Source: a virus. From it: a DNA stretch of 36,511 bases. Where the stretch lies: IMG/VR virus record IMGVR_UViG_3300048023_000466, positions 1 to 36,511 of that record; one strand, given 5' to 3'. This document shows positions 16,818-26,469 of this stretch, piece by piece. A model generated the notes under the pieces. It saw nothing but the letters and a program-made list of their open reading frames with translations. It did not search any database and had not been told where the DNA came from. Within the stretch, counting starts at the first letter, position 1; every line of letters begins with the position of its first letter. A program made the position numbers and the translations under genes.

Positions 16818-17114
16818 GAGTACCAGCGTGTTCCGATGAGTTCTCATGAGTTCCGGTGTGTTCCGGCGAGTACCTGCGGGTTCCGCGGAGTACGACCGGG
16901 TACAACTGTGTTCCGCGGAGTACCTGCGGGTACCTCGGTGTTCCGCGGAGACCCGGCGAGCACCCGGCGTGTACCACCGTGTTCAAGGTGAACAACCGTG
17001 TTCTACTTGAACACGATGAGACACGGGCGTGTTCCGCAAGGTTCCGCTCAGACCCCGCGTGTACCGCGATGTTCAGCTTGAACAAGCGTGTTCTACTTGA
17101 ACACCGTTGTTCAC
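16818..17114. repeat. Decamer repeat array (about 29 units, 10-bp period)
   Basis: The 330-bp gap between the terminase and protease genes is almost filled by degenerate 10-bp units. On the plus strand the unit approximates TTCCGCGGAG or TACCTGCGGG, that is T-(T/A)-C-C at its start and G-x-G at its end. The units from 16821 to 16950 keep an exact 10-bp register; later units shift by single bases. Higher-order copies occur: a 24-bp block at 16990-17013 repeats at 17080-17103 with one change. Many units carry GTTC or GAAC half-sites, some forming short dyads (GTGTTC-TACTT-GAACAC twice). A 10-bp period places every half-site on the same DNA face. It could be a packaging site, a protein-binding array or a curvature element. 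Confidence 0.85.
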
Positions 17115-18436
17115 ACCGCCCACGGCGATTGCCGGGTCGACTGAAACGGCACCACCGCCTCGGCCTGCCGGTTCGTCACCATAAGCTCGGTCAGCGCCCA
17201 CACGAGCGCATCGAGCCGGTCCGGCGACGGGCCATCGGGCGTCCATGTGCAGAGCTGGTCTTCAAGCTCGGGAAACAGACCGGCGTGCGCGACCCTGCCC
17301 TGCTCATACAACGCTGCGACCGGTTCGGCGCGTGTCCGCTTACCGCGGGAGGCTCGCACGAGCTTCACCGGGACCGAAGCGTCGACCGTGCGGATCGTGT
17401 GAGAGATCATGTCGCCGCCCTGATTCGCCTCGGCCACAATGCGGTCTGCCTTGTGCACGTGGTACCCGGTGACCGCCGCTGCCGCCCATTCCGACGGCGA
17501 GGCCTTGAGGGAGCGGTCCTCGAGGACGTAGCCGCGGCCTTGCGAGTCGATTCCGGCGACAACGATTCCGGTCTCGTCCGAGTCTGCGTTCGAGGTCACC
17601 GCAGGGTCGACCGCGACGACGATGCGCTTGAGCGGCGGCACGCTGGTCGTGCGGGCGTCATCGAGCATGTCCCGGGTCCAGAGCGCTCCGTCCGCGTCGA
17701 GCAGAATCTCAGCGTTCAACTCCTGGCGACCGAGGCGGGTGCCTTCATACTGCTGCCGCATCTCGTCGAGGAAAGCGGGCGACAGGTTCGCGGCGTTGTC
17801 GTAGGTCGAGCCGCGGGTGACTGCTACGTCGTTGCGCTCGACTAGCTCCCGGATCAGCCGGGTCGGCTTCGGGGTGGTGGTCGCCACGACTCTGGGCCGG
17901 TCGCCGATGCGAAGCCCGAACATGAGCTGCGCCCACGCCTCCGGGTAGCGCCATGCGGCGATCTCGTCGGCCCATGCGAGGTCGTGGTTCGGGCCGCGGA
18001 GCCGGTCGGGTTCGTCTGCGGAGTACGTCGTCGCGATCGCTCCGTTGTGGAACGTGATGCGTCGTTTCGACGGTTCGTAGCGTGGTCGTCGTTCCTCGTG
18101 AAACACTTTCAGCAGACCCGACTCGCCTTCGATCATCGTGTCGCGCACGTCAGCGGCGGTGGCTCCGACGAGGGCGATGCGACCGGCGCAACCCTGCTCG
18201 ACCTGCCCCCGGACCCATTCCGCTCCCGACCGGGTCTTGCCGAACCCTCGACCGGCGAGGATCAGCCAGATACGCCAGTCGGTGTCGGGCGGCATCTGCG
18301 ACGGGCGCGCCCAGAGCGACCAGTCGTGCCAGACCGAGCGCGCTTCCTCGTCGGTTAGGTCTTCGGTCCAGTCAAGACCCTTCGCGGTCGCCGCGTCGGT
18401 GAGGCGCTGGACAATCGACCGCTGATCGTCGTTCAC
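17111..18436 (-). CDS. terL: Terminase large subunit (441 aa)
   Basis: The packaging ATPase and nuclease. Walker A is LAGRGFGKT at residues 60-68, Walker B with catalytic Glu is LAWADE near 153-158, and a coupling-type motif TTTPKPTRL lies at 187-194. The nuclease domain begins near residue 270 with VVAVDPAVTS (Asp277), continues with RIVAEANQGGDM and ends with DRLDALVWAL near 411; these hold the acidic metal ligands. The start is GTG at 18436, overlapping the small-subunit stop by four bases (GTGA). Length fits the compact terminases of environmental siphoviruses. The repeat array begins immediately after its 3' end. Confidence 0.96.
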   Translation of the reverse strand: MNDDQRSIVQRLTDAATAKGLDWTEDLTDEEARSVWHDWSLWARPSQMPPDTDWRIWLILAGRGFGKTRSGAEWVRGQVEQGCAGRIALVGATAADVRDTMIEGESGLLKVFHEERRPRYEPSKRRITFHNGAIATTYSADEPDRLRGPNHDLAWADEIAAWRYPEAWAQLMFGLRIGDRPRVVATTTPKPTRLIRELVERNDVAVTRGSTYDNAANLSPAFLDEMRQQYEGTRLGRQELNAEILLDADGALWTRDMLDDARTTSVPPLKRIVVAVDPAVTSNADSDETGIVVAGIDSQGRGYVLEDRSLKASPSEWAAAAVTGYHVHKADRIVAEANQGGDMISHTIRTVDASVPVKLVRASRGKRTRAEPVAALYEQGRVAHAGLFPELEDQLCTWTPDGPSPDRLDALVWALTELMVTNRQAEAVVPFQSTRQSPWAV

Positions 18437-18873
18437 TGCTCAAGCTGACGCAGACGTTCCCGGAGCATGTCGCCAACGTCGGTCCGCAGCGCGCCGCCGC
18501 CCTCGCCGGTCACCTCGACCTGCCTGGGAGCGTCGAGGCCCATCAGGCCGGAGCGGCGCTGCGAGATGCGGATCATCGTCTGCTGCAGCTTCGCGAAGTC
18601 GTCGTTTGACTCGGCAGAGTTCATCCGCGCATAGGCGCGTCGCCATAGGTCGTCGAGCCGTTCGTTCTCAAGCACGCGCAAGTCGTCGGTCGCCTCGCGG
18701 CCCATCCGCTTGATCGCAGCGTCGTAGGCCTCTTTCGCACCCTGCCGTCCGGCGTAGCCGACCTCTCTCGCGATCGTGTCGAACGTAAACCCGGCGCGGC
18801 GCAGGTCGAGCACGCGCGCGTAGCGTTCGGCTTGATCTGGGGTGAGCGCGGGGGTGTTGCCCTTAGGTGGCAT
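18433..18873 (-). CDS. terS: Terminase small subunit (146 aa)
   Basis: A 146-residue protein with an N-terminal helix-turn-helix (YARVLDLRRAGFTFDTIARE, then VGYAGRQGAKEAYDAA) and a helical middle region, coupled to the large terminase by a four-base overlap. Small terminases bind the packaging site and recruit the large subunit. It starts at the ATG at 18873, ten bases after the FolE stop. There is no Shine-Dalgarno sequence; TAAGCT, which includes the FolE stop codon, lies six bases before the ATG, so a leaderless start is possible. Confidence 0.88.
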   Translation of the reverse strand: MPPKGNTPALTPDQAERYARVLDLRRAGFTFDTIAREVGYAGRQGAKEAYDAAIKRMGREATDDLRVLENERLDDLWRRAYARMNSAESNDDFAKLQQTMIRISQRRSGLMGLDAPRQVEVTGEGGGALRTDVGDMLRERLRQLEQ

Positions 18874-18882
18874 GTCCAGAGC

Positions 18883-19788
18883 TTATGCGTCCAGAGCGAT
18901 CGACATGAACTCTGCTCGGCGTGTGGGGTCGTCGGCGATGATTCCGCGGAGCGAGTTTGTGGTCATGGTGGCTCCGGGCTTGCCGACACCGCGGCAGCTC
19001 ATGCACTGGTGGTGGGCGTGGATGACGACACCGACGCCTGCTGGCTCGAGGTGGTGGTGCAGGTCGGTCGCAATGTCTTCGGTGAGTCGTTCTTGCACTT
19101 GGAGGCGCTTGGCGTGTGCGTCGACGAGGCGTGCCAGTTTCGACAGGCCGACGACTTTGAGGCCGGGGACGTAGCCGACTGTGGCGGTCCCGGTGAACGG
19201 GAGCATGTGGTGCTCGCAGAGCGACGTGAAGGGAATGTCGGAGAGGACGACGGTGCCGGACACTTCGCCCACGTCGAACTGCACTCCGAGGATCGTTTCA
19301 ATGTCGGTGTGGTAGCCGACGGTCATCTCGGACATGGCCTTGATGACGCGCTTCGGGGTGTCGATTAGACCTTCGCGGGTTGGGTCTTCGCCGATGTGTT
19401 GCAGGATTCGCACGACGGCGTCTGTCGGGTCGCCCGCGTCTCGTTCCCACGGGAACGCGAGCCATGTGTCGACCAGCGTTGCGTCGGGGGCGATATCGGC
19501 TGGCGAGTAGGGCTTGCGGTACAGGGTGTCGCGGTCGTTGGCTTCATAGGCCGAGAGTGTGCGGCCCGTGTCGACAAGGTCGTCTACGACGAGTGTGCGG
19601 TCGTCGATCTCGTCTGGTCGGTCAACGAGGTGCCACCCGGCTCGTTCTGAGGCCATGACGGCGATCGGTGCGCCACCTTGCGGGACGCCGTAGACCTTCT
19701 CGATGTGCTGCGCGTCGGCCCATCTTGCGACGAGGCGGTCGACCTCGAGCGAGATATCGCTCCACGTCAGGTGTTCGACTTCGCTCAT
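18883..19788 (-). CDS. folE: Phosphoribosyltransferase-GTP cyclohydrolase I fusion (301 aa)
   Basis: A two-domain enzyme. Residues about 1-115 form a type-I phosphoribosyltransferase with the PRPP loop LVVDDLVDTGRT (66-77) and a VYGVPQGGAPIAVM strand-loop. Residues about 120-301 are a GTP cyclohydrolase I with all hallmark segments: TSLCEHHMLPFTG, GLSKLARLVDAHAKRLQVQE and HHQCMSCRGV. Zinc ligands Cys191, His194 and Cys262 are present. FolE converts GTP to dihydroneopterin triphosphate, the first step towards queuosine-type bases. The gene follows QueE by one base and is the last of the modification operon. The fused transferase may recycle a purine base, possibly guanine released by DpdA; this is inference. 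Confidence 0.93.
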   Translation of the reverse strand: MSEVEHLTWSDISLEVDRLVARWADAQHIEKVYGVPQGGAPIAVMASERAGWHLVDRPDEIDDRTLVVDDLVDTGRTLSAYEANDRDTLYRKPYSPADIAPDATLVDTWLAFPWERDAGDPTDAVVRILQHIGEDPTREGLIDTPKRVIKAMSEMTVGYHTDIETILGVQFDVGEVSGTVVLSDIPFTSLCEHHMLPFTGTATVGYVPGLKVVGLSKLARLVDAHAKRLQVQERLTEDIATDLHHHLEPAGVGVVIHAHHQCMSCRGVGKPGATMTTNSLRGIIADDPTRRAEFMSIALDA

Positions 19789-19789
19789 G

Positions 19790-20506
19790 TCATCGTCCTC
19801 TTTCGTCGTTCCATATGCGGACGTGCAGTCTGTCGGAGTAGTGGTAGCCGGTTTCTAGCGCATACTGAGCGACGCGGGGTGCATTGACGTTCAGTTCGAG
19901 CTTCGTTCTGCCTTCGGGCATGAGCCAGACCCGGTTGTGTGGCCAGTCGTAGCGTTCGACGAACTGCTCTACCGCTGTCATGTCTTCGTCGGTTGCGATG
20001 ACGAACTTGGCGTCGGCGCGTTCGTGCCATGCTTCCTCGGCGAACGCAGCGTAGGTCTCGTCCCAGTTCTCTTTGACGGTGATGCCTGATCCGGGCAGCT
20101 TCGGCGACACGGAGTAGGTCACGTCGGTCGATGCTCGACTGAGCGGCGGTCGGGTGCCGTTCGTTTCGATGTGAACGTGCGCGTCGACTTGCTCGGCCAG
20201 TTCGGTCACCGCTCTGGCTTGCAGCAGCGGTTCGCCGCCTGAGATGACAAGCTGGTGGGTCGTCGGGTCGAAGCCGAGGTCGACGAGCGCGAGGATGAGC
20301 GCTTCGATGTTGACGGTCGTTTGTTCTTTCGCGCGGTCGTAGGCGACGCCGTTCTTGCCGGTCCAGTCCCACGTGTAGGGCGTGTCGCACCACGAACAGT
20401 CGAGGTTGCAGCCGGAGGTGCGGATGAAGACGCATGGTGTGCCGGTGTAGCGGCCTTCGCCTTGCAGGGTCGGCCCGAACACTTCACTGATTCGCAAGTT
20501 GGTCAT
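19790..20506 (-). CDS. queE: 7-carboxy-7-deazaguanine synthase (238 aa)
   Basis: A radical-SAM enzyme that makes 7-carboxy-7-deazaguanine from 6-carboxytetrahydropterin. The cluster motif SGCNLDCSWC gives Cys33, Cys37 and Cys40 (Cys-x3-Cys-x2-Cys). The N-terminal LRISEVFGPTLQGEG and the SAM-contact segment LVISGGEPLLQ (residues 87-96) are the standard QueE signatures, and the length fits the family. It overlaps QueD by four bases. There is no sign of a QueC domain, so the pathway encoded here stops at the carboxy compound. Confidence 0.95.
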   Translation of the reverse strand: MTNLRISEVFGPTLQGEGRYTGTPCVFIRTSGCNLDCSWCDTPYTWDWTGKNGVAYDRAKEQTTVNIEALILALVDLGFDPTTHQLVISGGEPLLQARAVTELAEQVDAHVHIETNGTRPPLSRASTDVTYSVSPKLPGSGITVKENWDETYAAFAEEAWHERADAKFVIATDEDMTAVEQFVERYDWPHNRVWLMPEGRTKLELNVNAPRVAQYALETGYHYSDRLHVRIWNDERGR

Positions 20507-20931
20507 GTGGCTGTCCAGATGGCCGCGTTGCGTTCATTCTCCCAACACTCGATGCGGATGACCTCGGCTTCTTCGGCGATCGAAGGTTGTAGGTCTTGCA
20601 CAAGGTCCCTCACCCACAACGTCATGCCTTCCATCGTCGGGTCCATGACGCGCAGGTCGATCGCGCCCGCGGCGTGCAGTTCCCGGAAGCGGTCAAGCTC
20701 GGGGTCGTCTGGCGAGATGAGGCAGGTGTGGTCGAACTGCCGTTCGAGCGTCGCTTTCAGTTCTTTGAGGCCTCCGAAGTCGACGACCCATCCGAGGTAG
20801 TCGCGCGGGCCGGTCCATTCGATCTCGACCCATCGGTCGTAGCCGTGCAGGTAGCGGCAGTGTGAGGTTGCGGCCCACTGTCGGTGACAGCATGGGAAGC
20901 CGCCGAGGCGCTTGCGGACGTTCGTGCTCAT
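20503..20931 (-). CDS. queD: QueD-like 6-carboxytetrahydropterin synthase (142 aa)
   Basis: A T-fold enzyme of the QueD / 6-pyruvoyl-tetrahydropterin synthase family. The start is the ATG at 20931, overlapping the upstream stop (ATGA). Residues: first His at CCHRQW (His16), then HCRYLHGYD with Cys25 and His29, but Tyr31 where QueD normally has the third zinc His (HGH). Other family features are WVVDFGGLK (48-56), FDHTCL near 66-71, PTMEG (98-102) with Glu101, and a C-terminal IECWENERNAAIW. The HGY form is, from memory, common in phage QueD-like proteins, and the enzyme may still bind metal with another ligand. It acts between FolE and QueE. Confidence 0.88.
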   Translation of the reverse strand: MSTNVRKRLGGFPCCHRQWAATSHCRYLHGYDRWVEIEWTGPRDYLGWVVDFGGLKELKATLERQFDHTCLISPDDPELDRFRELHAAGAIDLRVMDPTMEGMTLWVRDLVQDLQPSIAEEAEVIRIECWENERNAAIWTAT

Positions 20932-21290
20932 GAGTCCTCCGAGTGGAACGTGAGGGTCGCGCCGACCTCGTCGTCCTCGGTGACCTCGACCGCGACCCAC
21001 GGCGTTGTCGGGTAGGCGTCGAATACGGCGGCGGCGACTTCGCCGGCGAGGTGCTCGCAGGATGAGCGGCCGTGCTCTCGCCGGGTCAGAGGCGGTGAGT
21101 CGTTGACGACGTCGAGCAGGTCGTGGAACTCGATGTCGCGGTCGTCGTGGTTGACCGGTGCGGTGACCCGGTAGTGGAACAGGTGCCGGTGCCGGTCGGA
21201 AAGGTACGCGCGGGTGTCTTTCGCTTCGGGCCAACGATGGAAGCCGATGCTCGCGGTCGAGACGGTGATTCGGCGGTCGGTGACGTTCAC
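20928..21290 (-). CDS. Small T-fold-like protein with His triad (120 aa)
   Basis: A 120-residue protein between DpdA and QueD, starting with GTG at 21290 and overlapping both neighbours by four bases. It appears related to the QueD fold: IGFHRWPEA (His18), DRHRHLFHYRV (His34 and His36, like the HGH zinc pair), DDRDIEFHDL and SSCEHLAGEV (Glu79, like the PTxE segment of QueD). The catalytic Cys of QueD is absent. It therefore keeps the metal triad that the neighbouring QueD has partly lost. Its reaction is unknown; it could be a second pterin-binding subunit or partner of QueD. The family relation is inferred by eye. Confidence 0.6.
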   Translation of the reverse strand: MNVTDRRITVSTASIGFHRWPEAKDTRAYLSDRHRHLFHYRVTAPVNHDDRDIEFHDLLDVVNDSPPLTRREHGRSSCEHLAGEVAAAVFDAYPTTPWVAVEVTEDDEVGATLTFHSEDS

Positions 21291-22207
21291 TGCTCTTGGC
21301 CTTTCATGTAGGTCGGGGTCCCAAAGTAGTCGCTGCGTGTGTCGTGGTAGTGCTTCATGCCGCGCGTCATAAGCGTCATCTCGGTCATCGCGAAGCGGGC
21401 GACATGCTCACGAACCTCGAACGGTGCCGAGAACGGGGTGTGCCACTTCTCGGGAATCTTCCAACCGCGTCGGCCTGCCGCACCGACCTTCATCGACGAG
21501 GGCCAGTTCCACATCGCAAGCCACGACGACGAGTCGGCAGAGTCCCACGGCAGGCCCATCTGCATCTCGTTCGGGGTGATCCCGAGGAAGTGGATGAACA
21601 GGTCCGGGTAGTCGGCGTGACGTTCGTAGGCGGTGGCGAACAATCGGCGGCGAGTGTGCGCGTCGGCTTGAACGAGGTTGCCGAAACACATCCGGTCGTA
21701 GCCTTGCGCCAGTTCGTCGAAGTAGTCCCAACCGTCGTTGAGCGGATGGTAGACCGGGATCGGATTCAGTCCTTCGGCCTCGAGCGTTGCCCGGACGCGC
21801 CGCTTGTTCTCCCGGCCGCCCTGATCTAGTTCGTTGTATCCCCAGAGGCGGTCGCCGAACTCGGAACAGATCTCGCAGTAGACGTCAAACAGCCAGTTGA
21901 AGTTGTCGATCTCCTCCGGTGCGAGCGCGAGCGCGTCGTCCATCGAAACGTCGTGCGCCCGCTTGTGCTGGTTCGTCAGGAAGAAGATGCCGGAGTCGAG
22001 GAACGTGTCGACGCCCGCGTCGAGCGACTCCATGAACTTCTCCCACGGGCGACCCTTTCGACCAAGAGGTCGACCGACCGCAGCGAACTCGTTGACGGCG
22101 AACAGCGTCGGGTATTCCGGGACCGTTGGCTTCTGATCGTTGCCGCCACCTGCGAAGAAGTACTTACACCGGTCGTCCTTGTCCCACTTGCCGTCGGTCT
22201 TCTTCAT
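21287..22207 (-). CDS. dpdA: DpdA-like DNA 7-deazaguanine transglycosylase (306 aa)
   Basis: A relative of tRNA-guanine transglycosylase of the DpdA type, which swaps guanine in DNA for a 7-deazaguanine base. The start is set at the ATG at 22207 (four-base overlap with the ParB-like gene). TGT-like features are FLDSG at residues 69-73 (Asp71, general acid/base position), HFLGI (206-210), and GLPWDSADSSSWL (218-230), where Asp222 or Asp225 would be the nucleophile. It is shorter than tRNA TGT and lacks the Cys3-His zinc site, as is common in phage DpdA. The FolE-QueD-QueE neighbours make DNA as the target much more likely than tRNA. Confidence 0.88.
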   Translation of the reverse strand: MKKTDGKWDKDDRCKYFFAGGGNDQKPTVPEYPTLFAVNEFAAVGRPLGRKGRPWEKFMESLDAGVDTFLDSGIFFLTNQHKRAHDVSMDDALALAPEEIDNFNWLFDVYCEICSEFGDRLWGYNELDQGGRENKRRVRATLEAEGLNPIPVYHPLNDGWDYFDELAQGYDRMCFGNLVQADAHTRRRLFATAYERHADYPDLFIHFLGITPNEMQMGLPWDSADSSSWLAMWNWPSSMKVGAAGRRGWKIPEKWHTPFSAPFEVREHVARFAMTEMTLMTRGMKHYHDTRSDYFGTPTYMKGQEQ

Positions 22208-22953
22208 GCGTTGATCTCGCGCGCTTCTGAGATGCCTGCCGCGTTCCACTTCGACAGGACGTGCCCGGCGAGGTACCGGTCGGCCTGCACCATGACGAGC
22301 GACTGACCTTGCATCGCTGCGGTGATTGCCACATACGGGGCCGGATATGGGACGAAGATGCGGTCGTTGGCGAGGTGCTCATACCAGAGCGACCACTCGG
22401 TCATCACGTCTGCGACAACGAGGACGTGCGGGCCGAGCAGCCATGTGCTCCCCTTCTCCGGGATGAAGTCCGGTTCGGCGATGCTTACGTCTTCAAGACC
22501 TTCGAGCGTGCGGGTCTCGTTGATCGCGTCCTCGCCCAACCCTGGCATGTCGAGGTCTTGCAGCAGTAGGTCAAGGTCGTCGCCGTCCCAACCGGTGCCG
22601 AGCAGACCTTCCTCCGACGTTGCGATGTTGCCGAGTAGCTCGGCGAGGAAAGCGTCGTCGTAGCTTGCAAGGTCCGAGGTGCGGTTGTCGGCGATCAAGA
22701 TGCGGCGGGCGGTGTCGTCGTCTACGTCGACCCAGTGGACCGGCACGCGGTCGAGGCCGCAATGCATCGCAGCTTGTAACCGGTGGTTTCCGGCGAGCAC
22801 GTTCCCGGTGGACACCTGCGCGACGAGCGTGCCGTACCAGCCGTTCGCCTCGATCGACTGAATGATCGCGCCGATGTCACCCTGCCGCGGGTTGTCGGGG
22901 TGGACGTTCAACGCCGTCAGCGGCGTCTTTCGGATGCCTGGCTTCTGTTCCAT
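22204..22953 (-). CDS. ParB-like nuclease-domain protein (249 aa), partner of DpdA
   Basis: A 249-residue protein with an N-terminal ParB/sulfiredoxin-type domain: VHPDNPRQGD (residues 17-26), NGWYGTLVAQVSTGNVLAGN and GNHRLQAAMHCG (55-66), VDVDDDTARRILIADNRT. It is not a partition ParB, as no ParA or helix-turn-helix is present. ParB-like proteins next to DpdA occur in bacterial dpd clusters (DpdB) and in mycobacteriophages with this modification, where they are thought to help DpdA act on DNA. It is the first gene of the operon. An in-frame GTG lies three bases upstream. C-terminal residues about 130-249 are specific to this protein and unassigned. Confidence 0.85.
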   Translation of the reverse strand: MEQKPGIRKTPLTALNVHPDNPRQGDIGAIIQSIEANGWYGTLVAQVSTGNVLAGNHRLQAAMHCGLDRVPVHWVDVDDDTARRILIADNRTSDLASYDDAFLAELLGNIATSEEGLLGTGWDGDDLDLLLQDLDMPGLGEDAINETRTLEGLEDVSIAEPDFIPEKGSTWLLGPHVLVVADVMTEWSLWYEHLANDRIFVPYPAPYVAITAAMQGQSLVMVQADRYLAGHVLSKWNAAGISEAREINA

Positions 22954-22986
22954 CACTCGTCAAGCTAACAGCGGCATGTACCGTTC

Positions 22987-23226
22987 GTGGGGATGGACGC
23001 CGTCGGATGGATGAGCGAGGCGCGCTGTCGCGGCGTTTCGCCCGACGTGTTCTACCCGCTAGAACCTAACTTCGCCGACGCGCGGGCGGTGTGCCGTCGC
23101 TGCGCGGTGCAGGCCGAATGTCTGACCTACGCGCTCGACAAGCCTGAACTGTTCGGTGTGTGGGGCGGGAAGTCTCCGCAAGAGCGGGACGACCTTCGAC
23201 GGGAACGGTTCGCGCCCCGAGCCTGA
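22987..23226 (+). CDS. whiB: WhiB-family regulator (77-79 aa)
   Basis: A small iron-sulfur transcription factor of a family restricted to actinobacteria and their phages. The four cysteines are ARC, then VCRRCAVQAEC (Cys-x2-Cys-x5-Cys), followed by the GVWGG turn and a basic end (ERDDLRRERF). The start is GTG at 22987 or, equally likely, ATG at 22993. It is the only rightward gene between 1 and 28314 and is divergent from the ParB-dpdA operon, with about 30 bases between them, so it may act on that shared region. A hairpin overlaps its stop. Phage WhiB proteins can redirect host transcription. Confidence 0.92.
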   Translation: MGMDAVGWMSEARCRGVSPDVFYPLEPNFADARAVCRRCAVQAECLTYALDKPELFGVWGGKSPQERDDLRRERFAPRA

Positions 23227-26122: not shown

Positions 26123-26469
26123 TCTGGGTCTGCCTCTGTCCGGGTCATGATGACCGGACCGACCTTCTTCGGCTCTTCGTCGGTCTGAAAGACCCACACG
26201 CCGGTCGGGTGGCCGATGGACAAGAAGCAGCCGCCGAGGCCGAAGACCCATTCGATGTAGGCGTCGGCGTTGAAGAACGGGACGAGCATGTCCGGCAGGC
26301 CGTGCTCCCACGTCGCCCGGTCGTAGGCGAACCGGGTGAGGTTGGGCCACTCGCCGAGGTACGCGTCCTCGAACGATTCGGCTGCGACCTCGAGGCTCTG
26401 CTCGTTGATGCGCGCCCACGCTTCGAGCGCGGGCCAGTCGTGCGACGCGATGCGGTCGAGTGCTTCCAT
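26119..26469 (-). CDS. ardA: ArdA-type antirestriction protein, short (116 aa)
   Basis: A small acidic protein similar to the C-terminal part of ArdA, the DNA mimic that blocks type I restriction enzymes. Matching features are SFEDAYLGEWPNLTRFAYD (ArdA 'F-x-D-x-Y-x-G-E-x' segment), then LPDMLVPFFNADAYIEWVFG (counterpart of 'L-x-x-Y-I-D-x-E-x-Y'), and GVWVFQTD near the end. Net charge is strongly negative, as needed for DNA mimicry. At 116 residues it is shorter than typical ArdA (about 165), lacking the N-terminal domain. It overlaps both neighbours by a few bases. It fits with the DNA-modification operon as a second antirestriction layer. Confidence 0.78.
   Translation of the reverse strand: MEALDRIASHDWPALEAWARINEQSLEVAAESFEDAYLGEWPNLTRFAYDRATWEHGLPDMLVPFFNADAYIEWVFGLGGCFLSIGHPTGVWVFQTDEEPKKVGPVIMTRTEADPE

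Follow-up and report, generated by a model that had tools for sequence, protein, structure and literature searches.

Phage 7-deazaguanine systems of the preQ0 group encode QueC, whereas the record described here does not, which raises the question of what base its modification operon would place in DNA. The operon occupies positions 18883-22956 on the minus strand of IMG/VR virus record IMGVR_UViG_3300048023_000466, the complete 36,511 bases of which form the window that we analysed, and encodes, from upstream to downstream, a ParB-like protein, the transglycosylase DpdA, a T-fold protein, QueD, QueE and a phosphoribosyltransferase (PRT) domain fused to FolE (Table 1). A first-pass annotation had described six overlapping genes forming a 7-deazaguanine DNA-modification set, and both points hold: all six open reading frames (ORFs) were found in this interval, and phage DpdA, FolE, QueD and QueE are all encoded on profile and fold evidence. 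It had missed that QueC (PF06508) is absent from the whole record, that the T-fold protein, a QueD paralogue, stands in the QueC slot and that the PRT domain is of Gpt type. The system is of a known kind: DNA modification by such a gene set is experimentally established in Rosebush and CAjan (dPreQ0), and dpdA is required in CAjan (PMC6884629). The window belongs to a distinct QueC-less branch that recurs and is not unusual in layout.

We consider it reasonably probable that the operon makes the base 7-deazaguanine from GTP, with the T-fold protein serving for QueC, puts it in place of guanines in the DNA of the phage itself and recycles the displaced guanine through the PRT domain. FolE, QueD and QueE would make 7-carboxy-7-deazaguanine (CDG) from GTP; without QueC no preQ0 would be made, and the T-fold protein would instead turn CDG into 7-deazaguanine, most likely by decarboxylation. 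DpdA, aided by the ParB-like protein, would then exchange guanines in replicated DNA for 7-deazaguanine (dDG), leaving dCDG in the DNA if the T-fold step were incomplete, and the modified DNA should block restriction enzymes. Each exchange would free one guanine, which the Gpt-like PRT domain would probably return to GMP, renewing the GTP that FolE uses. From gene content and order, fold, motif conservation, the mutual exclusion of QueC and the T-fold protein and the distribution of the PRT domain we infer the reactions, substrates, products and protection set out here.

A T-fold protein in the QueC slot

Among 49 contigs found with the window DpdA, the slot held a T-fold gene in 44, QueC in three and a relative of Bipper gp4 in one, with one contig lacking a slot gene and none carrying both T-fold and QueC. 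As this sample rests on one DpdA type, a second was anchored on QueE, an enzyme that the two branches share. Its loci with an observable slot comprised 45 with QueC only, nine with T-fold only, none with both and five with neither (Fisher P=1.6e-7), and clustering QueE at 90% identity left 36, eight, none and two (P=1.7e-7). Searches of whole records gave the same picture, QueC being found in 0 of 48 T-fold-anchored records and a true T-fold in 0 of 50 QueC records; a weak T-fold match in one of the latter (G154) is, by position, the QueD gene. T-fold and QueC genes share one slot within a common gene order, and the identical order is seen again in dozens of viral contigs, far beyond chance.

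The exclusion extends to named phages. Cellulophaga phage phiST and Acidovorax phage ACP17 encode homologues of the T-fold protein, and of twelve named phages with a T-fold gene, drawn from unrelated groups, none has a full QueC, the T-fold gene adjoining FolE, QueE or DpdA; Vibrio phage D479 shows a partial QueC match (positions 133-201) and Xanthomonas phage X1 a sub-cut-off match. A quick DpdA tree implies at least seven changes of slot state, at least four of them forced by supported branches (some branches are long and the counts approximate), and three separate QueC cases (L031, L052 and L076) lie inside the window's T-fold clade.

The AlphaFold2 model of the T-fold protein (pLDDT 95.1, pTM 0.87) has E. 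coli QueD as its best PDB fold (TM 0.71-0.75), and its profile matches that of QueD (probability 96.3%, E 1.5e-9). The invariant H18, H34 and H36 align with the three QueD zinc histidines and E105 with the QueD ligand-binding Glu, and the invariant QueD residues Cys30 and Asp72-His73 have no counterpart in the alignment; the catalytic roles of this Cys and Asp-His pair and the ligand roles of the His and Glu are well established for QueD and other PTPS enzymes. We rejected a second QueD, to which the fold is nearest yet whose catalysts are missing, and a QueF, since QueF-like structures rank lower in the fold search. A separate QueD adjoins the T-fold gene in nearly all DpdA-anchored loci and QueC operons equally have QueD, so the T-fold protein is not the 6-carboxytetrahydropterin (CPH4) synthase. 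The window QueD itself keeps the Cys and Asp-His motifs and has Tyr at the third zinc-ligand position (HGY). It falls in a subfamily with HGY for HGH, some members of which (for example L010 and ACP17) also lack the first zinc histidine.

Since the T-fold protein replaces QueC, whose substrate is CDG, an enzyme acting on CDG is indicated. Decarboxylation to 7-deazaguanine, the simplest reaction of CDG and one that would give dDG, is most likely. The family is distributed as expected of a CDG decarboxylase, with FolE, QueD, QueE and DpdA and without QueC. Cui et al. 2023 reportedly detected both dDG and dCDG in phages and gave the name DpdL to a predicted CDG decarboxylase, said to be a QueD-like protein proposed to act on CDG in phages without QueC; the T-fold protein may be DpdL. 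Gene content alone predicts phages with 7-deazaguanine lacking the cyano group, a product prediction that covers about 150 loci (duplicates included) and hundreds more IMG/VR matches.

Several points weigh against this reading. The QueE-anchored sample comprises the 80 nearest relatives only, and contigs are often fragments; decarboxylation is deduced from QueC exclusion, fold and the earlier naming of DpdL, and another conversion of CDG, or none, is possible; host supply of QueC is possible for this one phage; and we found no nucleoside measurement for any T-fold carrier in the literature searched.

We regard as unlikely a version in which the operon is the same and the T-fold protein is not a decarboxylase, performing another step on CDG or chaperoning CDG to DpdA, so that the DNA base would be dCDG or an unknown derivative. 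Only exclusion and position indicate a role on CDG, and CDG was the base proposed by Hutinet 2019 for Bipper, which also lacks QueC (PMC6884629). Moreover, QueC-less relatives hold two unrelated slot genes, the Bipper gp4 type and a methyltransferase-like ORF, with which several side-chain chemistries look possible. The residues of the T-fold protein point the other way: a zinc T-fold without those of the QueD reaction and with those for ligand binding suits an enzyme acting on a 2-amino-4-oxopyrimidine, and near-total retention together with invariant residues suggests catalysis over a passive role.

The Bipper operon (KU728633) is a close parallel in layout, running ParB-like, DpdA, small gene, QueD, QueE, FolE, 'RNaseE'/small terminase (TerS) and large terminase (TerL) in the same order as the window and without QueC. 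It differs in that its FolE has no PRT domain, its DpdA falls in another clade and no relation could be detected between its slot gene, gp4, and the T-fold family; gp4 was tried as a divergent T-fold and gave no profile match, a comparison that involves only two gp4-type sequences. This third, unrelated type of slot gene was seen in QueC-less operons at 2047-2472 of L054 (Bipper gp4) and at 10939-11358 of L050, the two being 53% identical with conserved His residues. Four further records (L165, L166, L168 and L169), none of which has QueC, carry a class I methyltransferase-like ORF between DpdA and QueD (199 aa; ~8914-9510 in L165), possibly a fourth side-chain chemistry.

The phosphoribosyltransferase domain fused to FolE

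Base exchange must release guanine, and how the phage copes with it is a question that the FolE fusion brings to the fore. Residues 1-116 of the fusion find their best PDB match in E. coli XGPRT (1a95, E 1.1e-3) and carry a phosphoribosyl pyrophosphate (PRPP) loop, VVDDLVDTGRT, together with Lys92, Trp109 and FPWE. E. coli Gpt shares the PRPP loop, the purine-site Lys and Trp and the PW motif, whereas the window domain has diverged, is shorter and forms part of a FolE fusion, its relatives being either fused likewise or located in the FolE operon. Conservation over 95 PRT domains is almost complete for the PRPP loop, the purine-site Trp and PW-E and stands at 79% for the Lys; of these domains (loci include duplicates), 56 form a fusion with FolE and 39 have a gene to themselves. 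A supposed fusion to QueD in L020 was discarded, the two lying in different reading frames.

A tblastn search with the window PRT found no named phage, and a PRT consensus was needed to find those that carry the domain. It lies under genes annotated only 'GTP cyclohydrolase' in Quinobequin-P09, VpKK5, a Stenotrophomonas phage and Sphingomonas phage MMDA13. It has a gene of its own in Flavobacterium immuto phages, where this stands between QueE and FolE, and likewise in Cellulophaga phiST, Synechococcus BUCT-ZZ01 and Campylobacter CP220-like phages. The analysis thereby offers a likely role for a domain that has gone unannotated in the 'FolE' of numerous sequenced phages (NP1-like, VpKK5-like, Stenotrophomonas and Sphingomonas).

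By its motifs the domain is of Gpt type, and it may recycle the guanine released by DpdA. Salvage of guanine to GMP, feeding the GTP that FolE consumes, would explain why FolE is the fusion partner. The domain accompanies QueC in 29 of 53 loci and the T-fold gene in 8 of 10, and since it goes with both branches, a step common to both is likelier than the processing of one end product. Its absence from 24 of the 53 QueC loci means that it is not essential, a point against the proposed loop. Nucleotide kinase genes were observed beside FolE or PRT, namely an adenylate kinase in Knocker (L003 5581-6147) and a dNMP kinase in Brevundimonas phage MaInes (L235 2623-3288); such neighbours would suit a route from guanine to GTP.

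It is somewhat unlikely, in our judgement, that the PRT acts instead on the product base (CDG or 7-deazaguanine), making a nucleotide for incorporation by a polymerase or for storage. This reading has a precedent, which tells against guanine salvage: TubE, a purine-type PRT, couples CDG with PRPP during tubercidin synthesis (PMC6112128), and a modified-dGTP route has been proposed for the Campylobacter phages (PMC6884629), which carry the PRT. The best structural relatives of the domain are nevertheless guanine and xanthine PRTs, its fusion partner catalyses the GTP-consuming first step, it is found with QueC and T-fold branches that differ in end product, and the operons in question encode DpdA, which needs no nucleotide.

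Taken more widely, guanine recycling and the exchangeable slot may be parts of one design. We advance only tentatively, as a possibility, that these systems are modular closed loops in which a single slot after DpdA sets the base chemistry (QueC, T-fold, Bipper-gp4 type or methyltransferase-like) and a guanine PRT, in many cases joined to FolE and without annotation in GenBank, recycles DpdA-released guanine into GTP.

Host supply, packaging and tRNA modification

The host could in principle provide QueC, so that the phage DNA would carry dPreQ0 as in Rosebush, whose DNA contains that base and which, unlike the window, encodes QueC. Phages can draw on the host for steps of the pathway (PMC6884629), but host supply does not predict that same-order operons never hold both QueC and T-fold, and we judge this reading improbable.

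The first-pass annotation also took the compact six-gene form and its direct link to the terminase to be unusual, and suggested that modification is timed with packaging. Neither feature is special. The order ParB-DpdA-(T-fold or QueC)-QueD-QueE-(PRT-)FolE is the commonest of all in viral contigs, and modification genes lie directly upstream of the terminase in Gordonia phage Sour, in Mycobacterium phages Bipper, Knocker and CRB2 and in many contigs. In Sour and Knocker, as in the window, ParB-DpdA ... QueD-QueE-FolE adjoins the terminase, although both encode QueC and have neither T-fold nor PRT; CRB2 is similar, its modification genes standing just upstream of the terminase (PMC6392294). The adjacency in the window is real, with the PRT-FolE stop 9 nt before the TerS start at 18873 (ten bases had been given), and the same neighbourhood returns in those four phages and several contigs. 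Among carriers of the same operon, however, the terminase lies within ~1.3 kb in some (for example L005, L016, L035, L052, L160, L171, L176, L197 and L225), 3-8 kb away in others (L009, L038, L043, L184 and L192), ~48 kb off in L018 and, in L032, upstream on the opposite strand. With distance and strand so variable, and shared transcription by itself being no proof of coupling, timing with packaging is unsupported and, we think, very improbable.

Several features mark the transglycosylase as DpdA-type, predicted to act on DNA. The Asp motifs of TGT (tRNA guanine transglycosylase) type that had been read from the sequence, D71-S-G, D128 and D225-S-S, are invariant in the alignment; the profile matches Bipper DpdA (probability 97.6, E 3.1e-12); and the AlphaFold2 model (pLDDT 88.9) has archaeosine TGT 1j2b as its best PDB fold (E 1.3e-4). 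Zinc-binding cysteines form an established motif of tRNA TGTs. The window protein has cysteines only at 14, 111, 114 and 174 and lacks that motif, and no Pfam family, TGT included, matched at E<=1. Rejection of a tRNA TGT on these grounds agrees with the phrog_887 match and with the tree, where the 306-aa protein groups with phage DpdA; tblastn with this DpdA found no named phage. It is therefore hardly credible that the operon serves host tRNA queuosine, notwithstanding that FolE, QueD and QueE are common to queuosine synthesis and that PHROG labels the transglycosylase 'queuine tRNA-ribosyltransferase', given that QueC was not found in the record and that DpdA has no TGT match even at E=1, lacks the tRNA-TGT zinc cysteines and aligns and groups with phage DpdA.

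Operon layout and the rest of the genome

The FolE, QueE and QueD assignments of the first-pass annotation are upheld by strong profile matches (Pfam, PHROG and TIGR/NF models), the QueE match to TIGR03365 (1.2e-30) lying under that model's curated cut-off. Four junctions within the operon are 4-nt overlaps and the fifth, QueE/PRT-FolE, is a 1-nt gap; TerS and TerL overlap by 4 nt. The TerS candidate carries the PHROG label 'RNase E', as does the Bipper gene between FolE and TerL.

Table 1 Features of the modification operon and the adjoining terminase genes in the window
Feature	Position	Strand	Basis
ParB-like protein	22204..22956	-	250 aa, GTG start; phrog_723 3.7e-36
DpdA, DNA guanine transglycosylase	21287..22207	-	306 aa from ATG; phrog_887 7.3e-17
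T-fold protein, QueD paralogue in QueC slot	20928..21290	-	120 aa, GTG start
QueD (6-carboxytetrahydropterin synthase)	20503..20931	-	142 aa; PTPS 5.8e-20, phrog_2389 2.9e-32
QueE	19790..20506	-	phrog_2076 7e-59; radical SAM 1.1e-10; invariant cysteines
PRT-FolE fusion	18883..19788	-	301 aa; GTP_cyclohydroI 3.9e-65, PRT signal
Gpt-like phosphoribosyltransferase domain of PRT-FolE (predicted)	19441..19770	-	residues 7-116; XGPRT 1a95 match
FolE domain (GTP cyclohydrolase I) of PRT-FolE	18898..19422	-	residues 123-297; NF006825 6.6e-67
Putative TerS, neighbour outside the pathway	18433..18873	-	phrog_645 5.9e-25 and position
TerL, neighbour	17111..18436	-	Terminase_6N 8.4e-24, Terminase_6C 1.1e-18

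Of 121 assessable loci, 114 have a ParB gene no more than 2.2 kb upstream of DpdA. The C-terminal part of the window protein (22204-22600) looks like the truncated N-terminal end of a DNA methyltransferase (phrog_498 1.6e-30; PADLOC MTase_II 4.9e-20), and this half contains a degenerate DPPY-type motif, VPYPAPY. The CRB2 authors suggested a DpdB homologue for the ParB-like protein of that phage (PMC6392294), DpdB being the ParB-like ATPase of dpd systems, and the bacterial dpd island (DpdA-K) likewise combines DpdA with this ParB-superfamily protein (PMC12839542). The window protein adjoins DpdA, as DpdB would, and is on sequence grounds a candidate phage counterpart of it, with a predicted role as the DNA-targeting partner of DpdA; PADLOC gives no DpdB match, nor did its dpd models match any of the window operon proteins. 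In contrast to the bacterial island, the operon has no restriction genes, and modification would fall on the phage's own DNA.

Elsewhere the contig is that of a tailed phage, with portal, head protease, scaffold, major head, tape measure, holin, endolysin and tail fibre genes. The order of the genes agrees with a circularly permuted genome that is nearly complete; a terminal overlap was looked for in the record and none found, so genes may be missing from it. A WhiB-like regulator gene (22987-23226) diverges from the operon and prophage relatives occur in Streptomyces, Kitasatospora, Amycolatopsis and Pseudonocardia, which suggests an actinobacterial host. We also observed a tRNA-Arg(TCG) at 26385-26459 on the plus strand, and the stretch that separates TerL from the next gene holds short imperfect tandem repeats of 30 and 19 bp (16880-17013).

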